A model generated the notes under the pieces. The model did not search any database, was not told the DNA's origin, and was given only the letters and a program-made list of their open reading frames with translations. This document shows, piece after piece, positions 16,391 to 25,084 of a stretch of DNA of 38,759 nucleotides. Location: NCBI GenBank assembly GCA_024641855.1, contig JAHECG010000017.1:1-38759 (forward strand). Direction: 5' to 3'. Position 1 is the first letter of the stretch. Every line of letters starts with the position of its first letter. Made by a program: the position numbers and the translations under genes. This stretch comes from Betaproteobacteria bacterium (GTDB lineage Bacteria; Pseudomonadota; Gammaproteobacteria; Burkholderiales; Thiobacteraceae).

Positions 16391-17014
16391 ATGAATAGCC
16401 ATAAGGCACGCCATAGCCACCTATCCTCAAATCATTTACGAGAAAGTATTGCACAATTGGCCGCACGACTGATGGCCGAAGGGGTTCAAGATTTTGCCTT
16501 GGCTAAGCGTAAGGCGGCGCGGCAATTAGGGGCGTCAGATACGCAAAACTTACCTAACAATAGCGAAATCGAGCAAGCCTTACGAACCTATCAAACACTG
16601 TATCAAAGCGCGCATCAAAACAGCCTGAGCAACATGTTGCGAACGCAGGCGCTGCGGGTTATGGGCATATTGGCGTGCTTTGATCCGTTGCTGACCGGCT
16701 CAGTGCTGCGCGGTACCGCGACCGAATATTCCGACATTAACTTACTACTGTTTGCGGATAGTCAGAAAGAGGTCGCCCTTTATTTACTTAATCGCGATAT
16801 GGAATATAGGCCCAACGAAAAGCGTTTCCGCTTTAACGATGGGGCGCGCCTTATACCGGTGCTGTTGTTAACTGGTAGCGATGAAGCGGATGTCCAATTG
16901 GCCATTTTTTCAAAGGCGGATCGCAGACATTTACCGTTGAGCCCAATTGATGGGCGGGTGCTACAGGGGGCGCGACTGTCGGAAGTGCGATCGCTTGTGG
17001 AGGAAGACGCGTAG
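16391..17014 (+). CDS. nucleotidyltransferase-fold protein linked to ponA
   Basis: This 207-residue soluble protein has an N-terminal helical region (about 15-90) and a small nucleotidyltransferase-like core. The core shows LLTGSVLRGTATEYSDINLL (100-119): Gly103-Ser104, ten residues, then Asp115-Ile-Asn117. Active minimal nucleotidyltransferases have GS-x10-DxD/E, so the second acidic metal ligand is replaced here by Asn, and activity is doubtful. The rest (residues 121-207) contains a VPVLLL-like strand region and LPLSPIDGR. Its substrate is unknown. The gene starts eight bases after the ponA stop and is likely co-transcribed with it. I recall similar hypothetical genes in related bacteria but no characterised member. 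Confidence 0.65.
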   Translation: MNSHKARHSHLSSNHLRESIAQLAARLMAEGVQDFALAKRKAARQLGASDTQNLPNNSEIEQALRTYQTLYQSAHQNSLSNMLRTQALRVMGILACFDPLLTGSVLRGTATEYSDINLLLFADSQKEVALYLLNRDMEYRPNEKRFRFNDGARLIPVLLLTGSDEADVQLAIFSKADRRHLPLSPIDGRVLQGARLSEVRSLVEEDA

Positions 17015-17101
17015 TTTTGGATACAAATGGAGTCTACTGAAAAATAGTATTTCAGGGGTTGAAAAGATTGCGGATGGTACGATGAATCGACGCCAAAACA
17101 T

Positions 17102-17126
17102 CGTCATCAGCGCTATTGGATGAACG
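17102..17126. promoter_or_regulatory. imperfect dyad, possible enhancer site upstream of the sigma-54 promoter
   Basis: CGTCATC (17102-17108) and GATGAACG (17119-17126) are near-perfect inverted repeats around an AGCGCT centre. The dyad lies about 120 bases before the predicted sigma-54 start, which is the usual distance for an activator binding site. PrsR is the obvious candidate binder, by inference. The rest of the 279-base gap (17015-17293) shows no gene; it holds this dyad, a short CTGAAA/TTTCAG dyad at 17037-17055, and the promoter. Confidence 0.25.
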
Positions 17127-17208
17127 CTATCGGTAAGGGCGGTAGGCGACATAAAACTTAAATTCATGTATTTAAAGGTATATTTTTTCATCCCGTGCGT
17201 CATAATGG

Positions 17209-17224
17209 TGGCACGATGCGTGCT
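17209..17224 (+). promoter_or_regulatory. sigma-54 (-24/-12) promoter of the epsB-prsK-prsR block
   Basis: The sequence TGGCACGATGCGTGCT matches the TGGCACG-N4-TTGCW consensus at every defined position but one (G for the first T of the -12 element). The GG (17210-17211) and GC (17222-17223) are exactly 12 bases apart, as required. Transcription would start near 17235, 59 bases before the ATG at 17294. A sigma-54 activator gene (prsR) lies in the block downstream. Confidence 0.7.
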
Positions 17225-17293
17225 TTAAGTGCGCTGTCATACAAAAAATCTAACTTAGTAAGCGCTACCTAACTAGGCATAACAACTAATCTA

Positions 17294-18685
17294 ATGATTC
17301 GCGTATTTAATTTTTATTTATCCAAAGGCGTGCTCCTGCTGCTCGTGCTGGAGTCTTTGTTGTTGTTTGCAGCCATACCGGTGGGCGTTGAATCGCGATT
17401 CCAGGATTCAATCTGGATGCCGTCGATGAGCACGATTGGAAGTAACGCGATACTGTTTTTGTGTTTGGGTTTAGCGATCATGAGCGCTTTTGGGCTATAT
17501 CGTCGCGATTTCGATGAGGGTCTGGGTAGCATGTTGTTCCGCGTCGGCGCCAGTTTTGTGCTGATTTTGCTGAGCATGGCGGCGTTGTATTATTTATTTC
17601 CCGAAATACATCTCGGACGTGGGGCGCTGGGTATGGCCTGTTTAGTAGGGCTGGCGGCAGTATTGGTAGTGCGTACGATCGTATTTCGTTGGTCCGATTT
17701 AGACATTTTAAAGCACCGCATGCTGGTGCTTGGCACAGGTACACGCGCCGCGAAAGCGATGGAGTTGCTCCATGCCGTTGATACTCGTCGTCGCATCCAT
17801 ATCGTGGGCTTTTTACCACTACAAGGCTTACATCATTTTGTGGATCACAGTTTGATCTTGACGGAACAGGGCGTACTGCCCGAGATTGTAGATAAATATC
17901 AGATTGATGAGATCGTAATTGCGGTACGTGAACGTCGAGGCGGCGGTTTGCCGGTAAATGATTTGCTCGAGTGCAAGCTTAAGGGCGTGCATGTTATAGA
18001 GTTGTCCAGTTTTTTTGAAAGAGAGCGTGGACAAGTGCAGCTGGAATCCTTGAATGCCAGCTGGATGGTTTTATCGGATGGTTTTCAACAAGGGTTTCTG
18101 CGCGATGTAGGTAAACGATTGTTTGATCTAGTGACCAGCCTAAGTTTGTTGGTGCTGACATTGCCATTGATGGTGCTGGCGATAGCGGTGATCGTCATGG
18201 AATCTGGATTCCCCGTACTTTATCGGCAAGAACGGGTCGGATTGGGCGGGAAAATATTTACCATCTATAAATTTAGAAGCATGGTACAAAACGCCGAAAA
18301 AGATGGAGCCCCCCAATGGGCACAAGCTGGGGATGCGCGCGTGACGAAGTTTGGAAATTTTATGCGCAAAGTCCGGATTGATGAGCTTCCACAAATATTT
18401 AATGTGTTGCGCGGTGATATGAGTTTTGTCGGCCCGCGTCCAGAGCGACCCTTTTTCGTCGATCAACTAATCGAGCAAGTCCCCTATTATGCGGCGCGCC
18501 ATAGTATCAAGCCGGGTATAACCGGCTGGGCACAAGTGCGTTACCCATATGGAGCTTCGCTAGAAGATGCGATCGAAAAACTGCAATTTGATTTGTACTA
18601 TGTTAAAAACCACACGCTCTTTCTTGACCTACTAATTATGTTTCAAACTGCGCAAGTGGTTTTGTTTGGCAAGGGGGCAAGATAG
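17294..18685 (+). CDS. EpsB-type sugar transferase (polyprenyl-phosphate glycosyl-1-phosphate transferase), PEP-CTERM associated
   Basis: This 463-residue membrane enzyme should load the first sugar-phosphate onto undecaprenyl phosphate for exopolysaccharide synthesis. It has four or five N-terminal helices (about 10-125), a nucleotide-binding-like middle (MLVLGTGTRAAKAMELL near 140-156) and a C-terminal bacterial sugar-transferase domain (274-463). The C-terminal domain starts KRLFDLVTSLSLL, then has YRQERVGLGGKIFTIYKFRS with FRSM at 327-330, RKVRIDELPQIFNVLRGDMS, VGPRPERPFF and KPGITGWAQVRY. This pattern matches the EpsB subfamily found with PEP-CTERM/exosortase loci. No clear Shine-Dalgarno sequence precedes the ATG. 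The prsK gene starts four bases after its stop. Confidence 0.92.
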   Translation: MIRVFNFYLSKGVLLLLVLESLLLFAAIPVGVESRFQDSIWMPSMSTIGSNAILFLCLGLAIMSAFGLYRRDFDEGLGSMLFRVGASFVLILLSMAALYYLFPEIHLGRGALGMACLVGLAAVLVVRTIVFRWSDLDILKHRMLVLGTGTRAAKAMELLHAVDTRRRIHIVGFLPLQGLHHFVDHSLILTEQGVLPEIVDKYQIDEIVIAVRERRGGGLPVNDLLECKLKGVHVIELSSFFERERGQVQLESLNASWMVLSDGFQQGFLRDVGKRLFDLVTSLSLLVLTLPLMVLAIAVIVMESGFPVLYRQERVGLGGKIFTIYKFRSMVQNAEKDGAPQWAQAGDARVTKFGNFMRKVRIDELPQIFNVLRGDMSFVGPRPERPFFVDQLIEQVPYYAARHSIKPGITGWAQVRYPYGASLEDAIEKLQFDLYYVKNHTLFLDLLIMFQTAQVVLFGKGAR

Positions 18686-18689
18686 CCCC

Positions 18690-20798
18690 ATGACATGGCC
18701 GATTGGCGCGATTAGTTATGGAATAGCGGCGCTGGCATTTGCCGTGCTGACGGTTTTGTTGGTCATTAGCCGACGCGACAAGTTTCACGGGGCGTTACTT
18801 ATTCTGGCGGCGGGTGTTACATGCGGCTGGGCGGTGATCAACGCGTATGCGTTGAATTACACAACACTTGCTGAGTTGCCCGTCCTGTTAGAAATTGCAC
18901 GTGACGGCCTTTGGTTGTTGTTGCTGTGGAAAATATTTGAATCGGGCGTGTGTAAAAATCCAGAGCCGACTCAAGCTTCATTACAGCGGATATTCATTGT
19001 TGGGGTCAGCATAGTTGGCGCAGTACTTTTGTATGCATTGGCGCTGCATGCGCAGGCGCTACCTGCGATTATGGATGGCGGCCCGGCCGGAATAATCATT
19101 GGCCACATTGCACTATCACTACTCGGTTTGGCGTTGGTAGAGCAACTCTATCGGAATGCAGCGGATACGCAGCGTTGGGCCATTAAGCACATTTGTTTAG
19201 GTCTCGGTGGCTTGTTTGCATTTGATTTTTACCTGTATTCCGATGCGTTGTTGTTTAAAGCGATTGACCCCGGTATCTGGAACGCGCGCGGCATAATTAA
19301 CGCACTGATCGTGCCGCTGATCGCCGTATCCGCTGCCCGTAATCCGCAATGGTCGCTAGATATCTCCGTTTCGCGGGGCGTGGTATTTCACTCCGCGACC
19401 TTATTTGGCGCGGGCCTATATTTATTGATCATGGCAGCCGCTGGCTATTACATCCGTCTGTTTGGCGGAAGCTGGGGAGGAATGCTGCAAGCGGTATTTT
19501 TGTTCGGCGCTTTATTGGTGCTACTGCTGTTATTATTTTCTGGTGCGTTGCGGGCGCGCTTGAAAGTTTTGTTGAGCAAACATTTTTTTAGTTACAAATA
19601 TGATTACCGTGAAGAATGGCTGCGCTTTACCTATACGCTGTCCGCCGGAGAGCCCGGTGTAAATTTACACGAACGCTCACTGCGCGCGGTCGCGGAACTG
19701 ATGGATAGTCCCGCCGCCATGTTATGGGTTGAAAGCGAACATACCTTTCATCAAGTCGCGCAGTGGAATATGCCATTAGTCAGCGACAGCGAAGATGCGC
19801 GGGGATCGTTATGCGCTTTTCTATCTGAACGTCAATGGGTGATCGACTTAAAAGAGTATGCGGAACAGTCGGATGTCTATGGAAATTTACAGCTGCCATC
19901 TTGGTTGAATGCGGTGCCGCGTGCTTGGCTAGTGGTGCCGCTTATTTTGCACGAGCATCTCATGGGATTTATGGTGTTGGCGGACGCCCGTAGCGCGCGC
20001 GAATTTAACTGGGAAGATAGTGACTTATTGAAAACGGTTGGGCGCCAAGTCGCGGTCTATATTGCGCAAGTCCAATCGACGGAAGCCCTGGTAGAGGCGC
20101 GTCAGTTTGAATCGTTTAATCGGTTATCAACGTATGTCGTGCATGACTTAAAAAATATTGTGGCGCAATTATCCTTGTTGCTATCCAATGCACAAAAACA
20201 TAAGCACAACCCTGAGTTTCAAGAGGATATGTTATCGACTATCGATAATGCGACACAACGCATGACGCGATTATTAGGGCAATTGCGTGCGGGCTATCAA
20301 TCGGCGCAGCAACAAGCCGCCATCGAGCTAGGGCAGTTGATGGAATTGGTCGTGCTGGAGAAAAGTCTCAGTCGTCCTGCGCCGCGGCTGACCAAGGCAA
20401 ATCAACCACTATGGATTATTTGCGATAAAGAGCGCTTGGTGCGGGTGCTGGGGCATTTAGTGCAAAACGCAATTGAAGCGACTGAAGCGACAGGCACCGT
20501 GAACATAAAACTCAAGGCACAAGGAGCATTCGCGAATATCGATGTAATAGACAGCGGTAAAGGCATGGATGAGGCATTTATTCGTGAAAAGTTGTTTCGT
20601 CCCTTTACTACGACCAAGAGTGGCGGCATGGGTATCGGCGTTTATGAATGCCGTGAATATGTCCGCGAATTAAAGGGTGAAATTAAAGTGGTCAGCACCT
20701 TGGAACAAGGAACGACGTTTACACTTAGCTTGCCATTGCGTAAGTTGATGCAGCCGGAAATAGAATCGCAGTTATCGCAAGGAGCAGATGGTGGCTAA
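18690..20798 (+). CDS. prsK: PEP-CTERM system histidine kinase PrsK
   Basis: This is a 702-residue sensor kinase. About eight N-terminal membrane helices (5-290) are followed by a GAF-like domain (about 320-460) and the kinase core. His485 lies in the phospho-acceptor motif VVHDLKNIVAQL. The ATPase shows the N box LVQNAIEAT, the G1 box DSGKGMD and the G2 box GGMGIGVYECRE near the end. The HDLKN form of the H box and the architecture match TIGR02916 (PrsK). The frame is open to a TTG at 18666 inside epsB, but the ATG at 18690, just after the epsB stop and a GGGGG stretch, is the better start. The 3' end overlaps prsR. The signal sensed is unknown; its output should be phosphorylation of PrsR. 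Confidence 0.93.
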   Translation: MTWPIGAISYGIAALAFAVLTVLLVISRRDKFHGALLILAAGVTCGWAVINAYALNYTTLAELPVLLEIARDGLWLLLLWKIFESGVCKNPEPTQASLQRIFIVGVSIVGAVLLYALALHAQALPAIMDGGPAGIIIGHIALSLLGLALVEQLYRNAADTQRWAIKHICLGLGGLFAFDFYLYSDALLFKAIDPGIWNARGIINALIVPLIAVSAARNPQWSLDISVSRGVVFHSATLFGAGLYLLIMAAAGYYIRLFGGSWGGMLQAVFLFGALLVLLLLLFSGALRARLKVLLSKHFFSYKYDYREEWLRFTYTLSAGEPGVNLHERSLRAVAELMDSPAAMLWVESEHTFHQVAQWNMPLVSDSEDARGSLCAFLSERQWVIDLKEYAEQSDVYGNLQLPSWLNAVPRAWLVVPLILHEHLMGFMVLADARSAREFNWEDSDLLKTVGRQVAVYIAQVQSTEALVEARQFESFNRLSTYVVHDLKNIVAQLSLLLSNAQKHKHNPEFQEDMLSTIDNATQRMTRLLGQLRAGYQSAQQQAAIELGQLMELVVLEKSLSRPAPRLTKANQPLWIICDKERLVRVLGHLVQNAIEATEATGTVNIKLKAQGAFANIDVIDSGKGMDEAFIREKLFRPFTTTKSGGMGIGVYECREYVRELKGEIKVVSTLEQGTTFTLSLPLRKLMQPEIESQLSQGADGG

Positions 20799-22173
20799 AG
20801 CAGAAAAAACGATCGGCGGCGGCCCGCTTCTCATCGTTGAGGATGACGCTGGGCTGCAAAAACAGCTTAAATGGAGCTTTGATGATCTTGAAGTCATTAT
20901 CGCGGGAGATCGTGAATCTGCACTAGTTGCGGTGCGGCGCTACGAGCCTCCAGTGGTAACGCTGGATTTGGGTTTACCCCCGGACGCGGATGGTGCGAGC
21001 GAAGGCCTAGCAACACTGGAACAAATTTTAGCGCTCGCGCCCGCCACTAAAGTGATTGTCGTATCCGGTAACCAAGATCGTGCAAATGCAGTGCAGGCTG
21101 TCGCAGCCGGGGCATACGATTATTACCATAAACCGATTGAGCCAGAAATCTTACGCATGATTGTCAATCGCGCAATGCACCTGCATCAATTGGAAGCGGA
21201 AAATCAACGCTTACAACAACCCCGAGGAGGCGCCTTGGCAGGGGTGTTGACCGGCAGTGTCTCCATGCAAAAAATATGTCGCACCATAGAAAAAGTAGCC
21301 CCGGTAGATGCCACAATATTGTTGCTAGGCGATTCCGGCACCGGTAAAGAATTGTTGGCGCGTGCGTTGCATGATCTTTCGCCACGGGCCAAGGAGCGTT
21401 TTGTCGCGATCAACTGCGCAGCGATTCCGGAAAACCTGTTGGAAAGTGAATTGTTCGGGTATGAGAAAGGCGCCTTCACCGGTGCCAGCAAACAAACCAA
21501 GGGCAAAATCGAGTACGCCAATCAAGGCACGTTATTTTTGGATGAGGTTGGAGACCTACCGTTTTCTTTGCAATCCAAACTGCTACGTTTTTTGCAGGAG
21601 CGGATCGTGGAACGCCTGGGTGGCCGCGAAGAAATCCCCGTCGACGTGCGGGTCGTTTGTGCCACGCACCAGGATCTGCGGCAACAGATTGCAGATGGTC
21701 GTTTTCGCGAGGATTTGTTTTATCGCATTAGTGAAATCACCATCGACATTCCTGCACTCAAAGCCCGCGATGGGGACAGCGTGTTATTGGCGCATGCCTT
21801 TTTGGAAAAATTCTGCAAGCAGTATGATAAAACGCTTAAAGGATTTACCCCCGATGCGCTCTCTGCGATTAAGAATCATGGATGGCCGGGCAATGTGCGC
21901 GAAATGGAAAACTGCGTAAAACGCGCGGTGATCATGAGTGATGATATTCGGATTGCAGCTGCTGATTTAGGCTTGCCACCCGGAACCGCAGAGCCTGAAT
22001 TATTAAATTTGCGCCAAGCGCGTGAAATTGCCGAGCGCGAGGCCGTGAGTCGAGCGCTTGTGCGCGTCAATGGTAATGTAGCGCGCGCGGCGGAGTTGCT
22101 GGGAATTTCACGCCCTACACTCTACGATTTGGTGAACCGGTTCGGCATTCAAGCGAAAGACGAAGTTGAATAA
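20788..22173 (+). CDS. prsR: PEP-CTERM system sigma-54-dependent response regulator PrsR
   Basis: This 461-residue NtrC-type regulator has a receiver domain (13-125) with acidic pair Glu18-Asp19-Asp20, phospho-acceptor Asp60 and Lys115. The AAA+ domain has Walker A GDSGTGKE (181-188), the sigma-54-contacting loop GAFTGA (228-233) and Walker B LFLDEV (249-254). A Fis-type helix-turn-helix lies at the C-terminus (AAELLGISRPTLYDLV). It matches TIGR02915 (PrsR). The AGGAG at 20780-20784 is only three bases from the ATG at 20788 but six from the GTG at 20791, so the true start may be the GTG. It overlaps prsK by about ten bases. All motifs needed for sigma-54 activation are intact, and a sigma-54 promoter stands in front of epsB. 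Confidence 0.95.
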   Translation: MVAKAEKTIGGGPLLIVEDDAGLQKQLKWSFDDLEVIIAGDRESALVAVRRYEPPVVTLDLGLPPDADGASEGLATLEQILALAPATKVIVVSGNQDRANAVQAVAAGAYDYYHKPIEPEILRMIVNRAMHLHQLEAENQRLQQPRGGALAGVLTGSVSMQKICRTIEKVAPVDATILLLGDSGTGKELLARALHDLSPRAKERFVAINCAAIPENLLESELFGYEKGAFTGASKQTKGKIEYANQGTLFLDEVGDLPFSLQSKLLRFLQERIVERLGGREEIPVDVRVVCATHQDLRQQIADGRFREDLFYRISEITIDIPALKARDGDSVLLAHAFLEKFCKQYDKTLKGFTPDALSAIKNHGWPGNVREMENCVKRAVIMSDDIRIAAADLGLPPGTAEPELLNLRQAREIAEREAVSRALVRVNGNVARAAELLGISRPTLYDLVNRFGIQAKDEVE

Positions 22174-22297
22174 TCGTTTAATGCGCATGATGGTCGGCCT
22201 AGCGTTAAAATAGCTTTGATATAGGGTCTTACCGCGCACCTCAGTTCACTGGGTTTTACTACAATTCTTTACATTGAATCCTTTTGGAGAAAATATC

Positions 22298-25084
22298 ATG
22301 TCGAATCGACGCAGCCCCTTCCCGCGAGCTTTGGCCATTGCGCTTGTACTGAGTTTGGTCGTCGCACTAAACGGCTGTGAGCGGTTCAAGTCGGCTGATA
22401 GCTTGTATCGTGACGCAGAAATACGTTACCAAAAAGGCGAGTTCAAAGCGGTTATCATTCAACTCAAAGCGGCATTACAAAAAGACCCAAAACATGGCCC
22501 GTCACGGCTTCTGTCGGCTAAGGCATATAACGATGTTGGAGATTTTGTCGCGGCAGAAAAGGAAGCCAGAAAAGCCCTTGAATTTGGGATGAATGCTGAT
22601 CAGACAGCGTTGGAACTAGCGCGCTCCTTAGCCGGACAAGGGCAATTTCAAAAGGCGTTAGATGAAGCGAAGTTGTCGCCAAGCCTGAATGGGGAAGCCT
22701 TAGCGAAAGTTCTAGTGCTACGCGGTGACGCCCAGATCGCCTTACGATTAACGGATGCAGCCAAAGATTCGTATGCGGCGGCATTAAAAGCGGCGCCAGA
22801 TTACTTTGGCGGTTATCTCGGGCAAGCGCGCTTGGCGGCTGCAAAAAATGATGAGCTTGAAGCCGCACGCCAAATCGACTTGGTGTTACAGAAGTCCCCA
22901 AAATCACTACAGGGATTACTGATGAAAGGCGACTTGCTGATCGCGCAGGGAAAAGTTGATCAAGCCGTGTTGGCGTATCAAGATGCTATCAAGGCTAATC
23001 CAAGTAGTGCGGCGCCCTATTTTAGGCTGGCTAATATTTATCTCGCTCAAAATAAGCCAACTGAAGTCAGTAACGCAGTTCAAGCGGCGCAAAAAACCGA
23101 ACCCGGAAATTTAGAGGCGCAGTACTTGTTAGCGCGAAATGACTTCCAACAAAAAAAATACAATGATGCTCGTGGGCACATCTTGGCGGTATTGCGCGGT
23201 GCGCCAGACCATATGCCGAGTGTCTTGTTGGCAGGTGCAATTTCGGCTGCGCTGGGCGAGACAGAGAACGCGGAGAAAAATTTAAATCGGGTAATTAATG
23301 CGTTTCCTGGTAACGCTTATGCGCGGTCATTGCTGGCGAGTACGTATCTGACCAAAGGCCAGACAGATTTGGCGTTAGAAACCCTGAAACCGGTGTTGCA
23401 AGTCGAGAAGCCGGACGAGCGGATCTTGGCTTTGACGGGGCAAGCGTATTTGGCTAAAGGGGATGTGGCGCACGCAACCGAAATGTTTGAAAAGGCGCGC
23501 ATCGCAAATCCAAATAGCGCCAAAATTCGTACCCGCCTGGGCGCGGCGCGCTTGGCGCAGGGTAACAACGAACTGGCGATTGCAGATCTAGAAGCGGCTT
23601 CCGCAATGGATGTCAAAGAGAATAGCGCCGACATGGTGTTGATCTTAAATTATTTGCAACATAAGAATTTTGACAAGGCCTTGGCGGCAATCGCCGTACT
23701 AGAAAAAAAACAACCTGACAGTCCGGTTCCCATGAATCTGCGGGGAGGAATTTTTCTTGCCAAGGGCGATATTAAGGCGGCGCGTGCTGATTTTGAGCGG
23801 GCTTTGGCCAAGCAGGCGGATTACTTGCCGGCGGCGCAGAATTTAGTGCAGCTGGATTTGCGGGAAAAAAATGTTGCCGCAGCACGAAAGCGTTACGAGG
23901 CGGTGTTAGCGAAGGATAAGCAAAATATTGGCGCGATGCTTGGTCTGGCCCAATTGGCCGCCATTGAGAAAAATGAAAAGGAGTATGGCGATTGGTTGGG
24001 CAAAGCGTCGAGCGCCAAACCAGATGCGATTGAGCCGCGTGCCTTGCTCGCGGATTTCTATTTAAAACAAAAGCGCCCGCAAGACGCCCTACGGATAGCA
24101 TCCGAAGCGCAAAGCGCAAACCCAGATAATCCGCGCGCATTGGAACTGCTGGCGCGCGTGCAGTTTGCGGTCGGCGATAAAGAGAGCGGTTTAAAGAGCT
24201 ATCAAAAGTTGGCGCAACAAAATCCCGACTCCGCGCCAGTGCAATATGGATTAGGGCTGGCGGAAGCGGCTGTGGAACATTTGGATAAAGCTGGCGCCGC
24301 TTTGCGCAAGGCCCTGCAACTGAAGCCATCCTACGCGGAGGCAGCCGCGACTTTGGTTGCGGTGGAAGTTCGTCAACAGCACGCTGAAGAGGCGCTTAAA
24401 ATCGCCAGAGAATTTCAGCGCGTGAATCCAAAGTTGATTGCCGGTTTTGTTTTGGAATCGGATGTGTTTGCGCAACAAGGCAAATTTGATCCTGCGATCC
24501 AGCTGTTGCAGAAAGCACAGAGCCTGCAACCGCAAAGCGAGGTTGCGATGCGCATCCATAAATTGCAAATGGCCGCGAAACGGCCTGCTGAAGCGGATGC
24601 GTATTTGCGGCGCTGGCTGACGGCTCAGCCAAATGACATGGCAGCACGCACCTATTTTGCTGAGAGTAGTTTAGCCCGCAAGCAGAATAAGGTCGCGATC
24701 GAACAATATGAACTAATCCTCAAGGCATACCCAGATAATGTCTTGATCTTGAACAATTTGGCGGCAACGTATCAACAAGAGAAAGACGCGCGCGCACTGC
24801 CAACGGCCGAGCGCGCTTATAAGCTTAAACCGGATGTGCCGCAAATTGCCGATACCCTGGGCTGGATTCTGGTCGATCAAGGTCAGACAGCGCGTGCTGT
24901 TGAAATCTTGCGCAAGGCGGCAACGGCCGCACCGAAGAGCGGCGAGATCGGCTATCACTATGCGGTAGCATTGAATAAAGCCGGTGATAAAGCTGCGGCG
25001 CGCAAACAATTGGAAGCCATTCTTTCCTCAGGTCAGGCTTTCCCACAGCAAGAGCAAGCCAAGGCGTTGTTGAAGCAGATGTAG
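22298..25084 (+). CDS. prsT: PEP-CTERM system TPR-repeat lipoprotein PrsT
   Basis: This is a 928-residue lipoprotein of the PrsT family (TIGR02917). The signal peptide ends in the lipobox LNGC with Cys27, after which the whole protein is made of about 20 tetratricopeptide-like helical pairs (for example LYRDAEIRYQKGEFKAVIIQ at 34-53, and repeated A-x-x-x-Y/P patterns to the end). Such proteins are thought to scaffold assembly or export complexes in the periplasm; no enzyme motif is seen. The frame runs up to a TTG at 22274, but the ATG at 22298 with GGAG at 22286-22289 is the likely start and gives a proper signal peptide. It lies 124 bases after prsR; that gap shows no clear promoter or terminator. 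Confidence 0.93.
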   Translation: MSNRRSPFPRALAIALVLSLVVALNGCERFKSADSLYRDAEIRYQKGEFKAVIIQLKAALQKDPKHGPSRLLSAKAYNDVGDFVAAEKEARKALEFGMNADQTALELARSLAGQGQFQKALDEAKLSPSLNGEALAKVLVLRGDAQIALRLTDAAKDSYAAALKAAPDYFGGYLGQARLAAAKNDELEAARQIDLVLQKSPKSLQGLLMKGDLLIAQGKVDQAVLAYQDAIKANPSSAAPYFRLANIYLAQNKPTEVSNAVQAAQKTEPGNLEAQYLLARNDFQQKKYNDARGHILAVLRGAPDHMPSVLLAGAISAALGETENAEKNLNRVINAFPGNAYARSLLASTYLTKGQTDLALETLKPVLQVEKPDERILALTGQAYLAKGDVAHATEMFEKARIANPNSAKIRTRLGAARLAQGNNELAIADLEAASAMDVKENSADMVLILNYLQHKNFDKALAAIAVLEKKQPDSPVPMNLRGGIFLAKGDIKAARADFERALAKQADYLPAAQNLVQLDLREKNVAAARKRYEAVLAKDKQNIGAMLGLAQLAAIEKNEKEYGDWLGKASSAKPDAIEPRALLADFYLKQKRPQDALRIASEAQSANPDNPRALELLARVQFAVGDKESGLKSYQKLAQQNPDSAPVQYGLGLAEAAVEHLDKAGAALRKALQLKPSYAEAAATLVAVEVRQQHAEEALKIAREFQRVNPKLIAGFVLESDVFAQQGKFDPAIQLLQKAQSLQPQSEVAMRIHKLQMAAKRPAEADAYLRRWLTAQPNDMAARTYFAESSLARKQNKVAIEQYELILKAYPDNVLILNNLAATYQQEKDARALPTAERAYKLKPDVPQIADTLGWILVDQGQTARAVEILRKAATAAPKSGEIGYHYAVALNKAGDKAAARKQLEAILSSGQAFPQQEQAKALLKQM

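Follow-up and report, generated by a model that had tools for sequence, protein, structure and literature searches.

The epsB-prsK-prsR genes encode the sugar transferase, the histidine kinase and the response regulator of a PEP-CTERM system, and a sequence resembling a sigma-54 promoter lies in front of them. We asked which regulator acts through this site. An earlier note on this DNA had proposed direct positive autoregulation, PrsR turning on its own operon with sigma-54, possibly from an upstream dyad. The window, i.e., the whole stretch of 38,759 nucleotides that was analyzed, corresponds to a complete contig from a genome of 3.19 Mb, apparently a MAG of an uncultured organism. The close relatives of this genome are Burkholderiales/Betaproteobacteria MAGs such as RBG_16_58_11. 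The TIGR scores of epsB, prsK, prsR and prsT are all far above the cut-offs (Table 1). PrsR has an intact GAFTGA loop at residues 228 to 233 of its translation, as had been claimed, and the genome encodes one RpoN (rpoN at C91).

Table 1. Features of the epsB-prsK-prsR locus, in window coordinates
Feature	Position	Strand	Basis
Core of the conserved upstream block, GCCAAAACATCGTCAT, candidate enhancer	17092..17107	+	Genus alignments
Dyad TCGTCA...TGAACG, degenerate here (dyad of the earlier note)	17101..17126		Sequence and genus alignment
Region some 45-70 bases upstream of the -24 site with weak matches to IHF sites (1-2 mismatches)	17139..17164		Weak; best window match has 2 mismatches
Sigma-54 -24/-12 element, TGGCACGATGCGTGCT	17209..17224	+	Sequence, one mismatch; conservation in 8 genus genomes, 2 sister-genus genomes and G054
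Predicted transcription start for the 17209..17224 element	about 17235	+	Predicted
epsB, XrtA/PEP-CTERM system sugar transferase	17294..18685	+	TIGR03013, 553.6 bits, cut-off 393
prsK, PEP-CTERM system histidine kinase, overlaps epsB	18666..20798	+	TIGR02916, 840.9 bits
prsR, response regulator with sigma-54 interaction domain, overlaps prsK	20788..22173	+	TIGR02915, 732 bits
prsT, TPR lipoprotein, separated from the end of prsR by 100 bases	22274..25084	+	TIGR02917

A conserved -24/-12 element upstream of epsB

The element is located in a 279-base gap between a 207-residue open reading frame (16391-17014) and the ATG of epsB at 17294, about 70 bases before the latter. It differs from the consensus TGGCACGNNNNTTGCW at one position, its GG (17210-17211) and GC (17222-17223) being the right distance apart, and matches 11 of the 12 positions of the near-consensus pattern TGGCAC-N5-TTGCW. 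Patterns with up to two mismatches are found 11 times in the window versus 10.4 expected, and genome-wide the one-mismatch pattern is about twofold enriched (67 matches versus 30 for the reversed pattern). As the window counts are at chance level, counting does not settle whether the site is a promoter, and conservation is decisive. A homologous site is present 71 to 93 bases before epsB in all eight genomes of the genus and both genomes of the sister genus, and 179 bases before epsB in G054, which belongs to another family; the compared genomes are 66 to 99% complete, and the relatives are not independent of each other. When the eight genus genomes are aligned, conservation in this region is confined to a few places, mainly the promoter, the beginning of epsB and an upstream block, and the rest is unalignable.

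Across the order, sites matching at least 10 of 12 positions were found in 18 of 82 epsB upstream regions, compared with 10 of 406 coding control pieces (Fisher p about 7e-9, for loci that are not independent). Outside the family such sites are uncommon before epsB (8/72), indicating that the promoter is largely a lineage feature. That 64 of the 82 loci have no site at this threshold, and that pattern counts across the window do not exceed chance, might suggest a fortuitous resemblance, with epsB using another promoter. We regard this as very improbable, given that the site has been kept in ten of ten family genomes and in G054 within an otherwise unalignable region. Judged by its sequence and conservation, 17209-17224 is a genuine, evolutionarily conserved sigma-54 promoter, the activity of which we infer. 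The near-consensus match described in the earlier note, including its exact GG-to-GC spacing, thus stands.

In scattered families, other sigma-54-like sites occur before epsB, as in L187 (1865), L209 (2056), L193 (1833), L214 (1712) and L180 to L182, without the genus element; L193 also has a TGTC-N9-GACA palindrome upstream. No site matching at least 10 of 12 positions was found before epsB in an Aquincola record (L370, strain MIMtkpLc11).

The PrsR box and the epsB promoter

Haft et al. (2006) predicted a PrsR site, the 17-base motif 1 ending in TTTACA, located on average 63 bases before the sigma-54 motif 2 (PMC1569441). In the genus and its sister genus, most PEP-CTERM genes have a near-invariant TTGTCG-N7-TTACA box, commonly 62 to 65 bases, about 64, before TGGCAY-N6-TGC; this is the Haft motif, recovered here independently. 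A 22-bit matrix built on 23 distinct sites, all from PEP-CTERM promoters in the two genera, gives scores of 20 to 31 at most PEP-CTERM promoters. The module made of the box and a sigma-54 site occurs 134 times (summed from the per-genome table) in 59 of 80 PrsR-positive genomes, whereas the reversed-pattern control gave no occurrence.

The box is absent before epsB in the 11 relevant genomes, where scores are nearly always at the level of shuffled sequences; G004 has a single isolated score of 10.5, 16 bases from the epsB promoter. In the window, the best full-box score within 250 bases upstream is -1.5, versus at least 22.7 in the training sites. No box of 12 bits or more was found anywhere in the window, nor any at the set threshold in the entire epsB-prsK-prsR segment of the window and its relatives, and the intergenic sequence between prsR and prsT contains neither a box (threshold 12 bits) nor a sigma-54 site. 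At epsB, no box lies 32 to 92 bases before motif 2, the interval expected for the PrsR regulon. Not one of the 82 loci from the order has the box-plus-sigma-54 module ahead of epsB, nor does any of the 78 named-genome loci, two sets that overlap. Judged by the box, the epsB promoter falls outside the PrsR regulon in its present definition. The proposal of direct autoregulation by PrsR is weakened by the absence at epsB of a box that is near-invariant at PEP-CTERM genes.

Several other arrangements were observed among the compared sequences. In PEP-CTERM promoters (L035, L109, L118, L119, L123 and others), 13 of the 23 spacers that separate the PrsR box from the sigma-54 site contain IHF-like sites with at most one mismatch, compared with 2.8 expected from shuffles; these sites mostly start 31 to 33 or 19 to 20 bases before the -24 site. 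In family f16, a good PrsR box is located about 200 bases before prsR (L178, 5233; L179, 5228), with no obvious sigma-54 site, and might represent an autoregulatory site of another type. In L229 (2100-2195; G120), a box and a sigma-54 site precede a small gene that immediately adjoins prsK on its upstream side, and transcription reading through into prsK could make for indirect autoregulation in that genome. In family f10 (L212, L223 and L228), seeming boxes ahead of epsB were rejected, as they fall in the preceding reading frame or at its 3' end and are not accompanied by a sigma-54 site.

The locus resembles the cis-region described by Haft et al. in that a sigma-54 site precedes PEP-CTERM system genes, the genome encodes PrsK, PrsR and PrsT, and an enhancer-like element is found upstream (PMC1569441). 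It differs in that motif 1 is missing at epsB, another conserved element being present about 85 to 115 bases upstream, and in that the target is the regulator operon rather than a PEP-CTERM gene. RpoN dependence of a PEP-CTERM gene is already known in Aquincola: the pepA promoter of A. tertiaricarbonis RN12 is RpoN1-dependent, its start having been mapped by primer extension, and it shares with our site a -24/-12 element, TGGCAC/CTGCTT at pepA, and a PEP-CTERM context, epsB2-prsK-prsR being elsewhere in the RN12 genome (PMC9850573). In contrast to epsB, pepA is a PEP-CTERM gene, reported with a predicted enhancer upstream (PMC9850573). In the part of the literature that was covered, we found no description of epsB-prsK-prsR being transcribed from a sigma-54 promoter; the studies retrieved deal with PEP-CTERM target genes and do not describe the control of PrsK/PrsR.

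A conserved block upstream of the promoter

The block upstream of the promoter reads CCAAAACATCGTCAT in the genus, about 107 to 116 bases before the -24 site. In its core, 15 of 16 columns (17092 and 17094 to 17107) are invariant across eight genomes, and the best 20-base window over the block has 16 invariant columns, versus a median of 2. The genome of the window contains a single exact copy of the 13-mer AAAACATCGTCAT. Further exact matches in G002, G005 and G008 were discarded, as they are inside long open frames and probably coding.

The dyad of the earlier note belongs to this block. In the window it is imperfect, CGTCATC...GATGAACG at 17102-17126 with a degenerate right arm, and it ends about 82 bases before the sigma-54 site. 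A perfect TCGTCA-N14/15-TGACGA is present in six of the seven other genus genomes, with one mismatch in G006, making the copy of the window the most decayed. The dyad is therefore real and conserved across the genus, but the most conserved part begins 9 to 10 bases earlier than had been described. Its sequence differs from that of the PrsR box. Across 1.97 Mb of retrieved sequence, perfect copies of the dyad are found at the epsB promoter only. A homologous element, of the form CGWC-N6-GTCG, is present in the sister genus and in G054. A pattern search for the element with a sigma-54 site, using a gap too short for the genus, matched only the epsB promoters of G008 and G054, and a second such search, which missed the epsB sites, gave matches at background level. 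Of the 30 top-scoring sigma-54 sites retrieved from the genome, the one at epsB alone has the element nearby, with a bare CGTCAT at one other site. Contrary to what had been anticipated, the dyad was not seen before the genome's own PEP-CTERM genes or its best sigma-54 sites, and its conservation supports it as a candidate enhancer-like element. The weak IHF-like matches are at a roughly constant distance from the -24 site across the genus.

This arrangement is reminiscent of NtrC-family sigma-54 activators with upstream dyad enhancers, in that the putative enhancer is about 85 to 115 bases before the -24 site and Fis-type helix-turn-helix regulators are present. It differs in the sequence of the dyad: TCGTCA-N14/15-TGACGA is not known to match any characterized site. 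With the promoter itself being real, the block might instead bind a repressor or another regulator, or mark the 3' end of the transcript that comes from upstream. It lies close behind the stop codon of the upstream gene in sister genomes, some of the genomes having arms that might fold into a hairpin. However, no run of T follows it, the invariant CAAAACA is outside the arms, the arms are unpaired in G009, and the distance to the promoter is typical of enhancers, all of which make such a role unlikely.

Candidate activators and control of the operon

Sigma-54 polymerase requires an activator. We identified six clear enhancer-binding proteins in the genome: PrsR, NtrC, a PilR-like and a FleR-like protein, a C33-type protein adjoining a histidine kinase, and a PrsR/NtrC-like C167-type protein; the names PilR, FleR and MSHA-like rest on gene context and on our judgement. 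Each of the six is represented by an orthologue in the five compared genomes that carry the element or promoter, and co-occurrence can therefore not pick the activator. The gene for the C167 protein heads a group of genes (L324, 7021-12690; G000:C167) that looks like an MSHA-type cluster and encodes an ExeA/MshM-like ATPase, a secretin-like lipoprotein and an MshN-like protein. A perfect sigma-54 site is found 146 bases before a NifH-like gene (L001, G000:C3, around 2669), which makes nitrogen fixation by the organism probable. Among the activators found in the genome, none was recognized as NifA, perhaps because of genome incompleteness.

In the autoregulation proposed in the earlier note, phosphorylated PrsR would recognize a divergent box or half box in the dyad and turn on its own operon with sigma-54. 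Response regulators commonly control their own genes. PrsR is conserved in every genome that has the element. The reverse strand of the element, moreover, resembles the left half of the PrsR box, reading ATGTCGGGTTTTT in G008 (score 16.8) and ATGTCGAATTCTT in G054 (12.2) at the homologous place, where true PrsR half sites score about 16 to 17; in the genus, ATGACGATGTTTT (8.8) is the top half-box match of every genome. None of 400 shuffles reached the G008 score, p was about 0.005 for G054, and the genus genomes taken singly gave p values of 0.055 to 0.175. The resemblance is thus strong in G008 and G054 and weak in the window and the genus, and as the test was chosen after the resemblance had been noticed, we treat it as a lead to possible divergent PrsR sites. 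Against direct autoregulation, the right half TTACA, near-invariant at PEP-CTERM promoters, is missing in 11 of 11 epsB promoters, full-box scores there mostly remain at shuffle level, and both arms of the genus dyad read TGACG rather than TGTCG. Simple self-activation is not the best reading because the DNA tag of the other PrsR targets is missing, and we consider direct control by PrsR doubtful.

We favor as probable, from the sequence comparisons, a sigma-54 promoter that transcribes epsB-prsK-prsR under the control of a dedicated enhancer at 17092-17126, distinct from the canonical PrsR box. A phosphorylated enhancer-binding protein would bind this block, and DNA bending would help it to contact the sigma-54 polymerase at 17209-17224. 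The sugar transferase, the kinase and the regulator would then be made together from the overlapping genes, and PrsR would act on PEP-CTERM genes through its own boxes. Whether the activator is one of the five others (NtrC, PilR, FleR, C33-type or C167-type), which would constitute a cascade, appears to us evenly balanced, although this is the likeliest option; what remains beside these proteins and PrsR is that the block binds something else. A cascade was judged somewhat likelier than autoregulation, mainly because the PrsR box is so invariant elsewhere. Its full form, a two-tier sigma-54 cascade in which a second sigma-54 activator switches on PrsK/PrsR via a dedicated TCGTCA-N14/15-TGACGA enhancer, is put forward tentatively.

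A conserved sigma-54 promoter without a PrsR box and with its own putative enhancer represents a short DNA segment able to separate self-activation from a cascade, and its analysis yields a short list of candidate activators. If true, the two-tier cascade would link a signal related to nitrogen, pili or flagella, or another two-component signal, to the initiation of exopolysaccharide synthesis and to the sorting of surface proteins.
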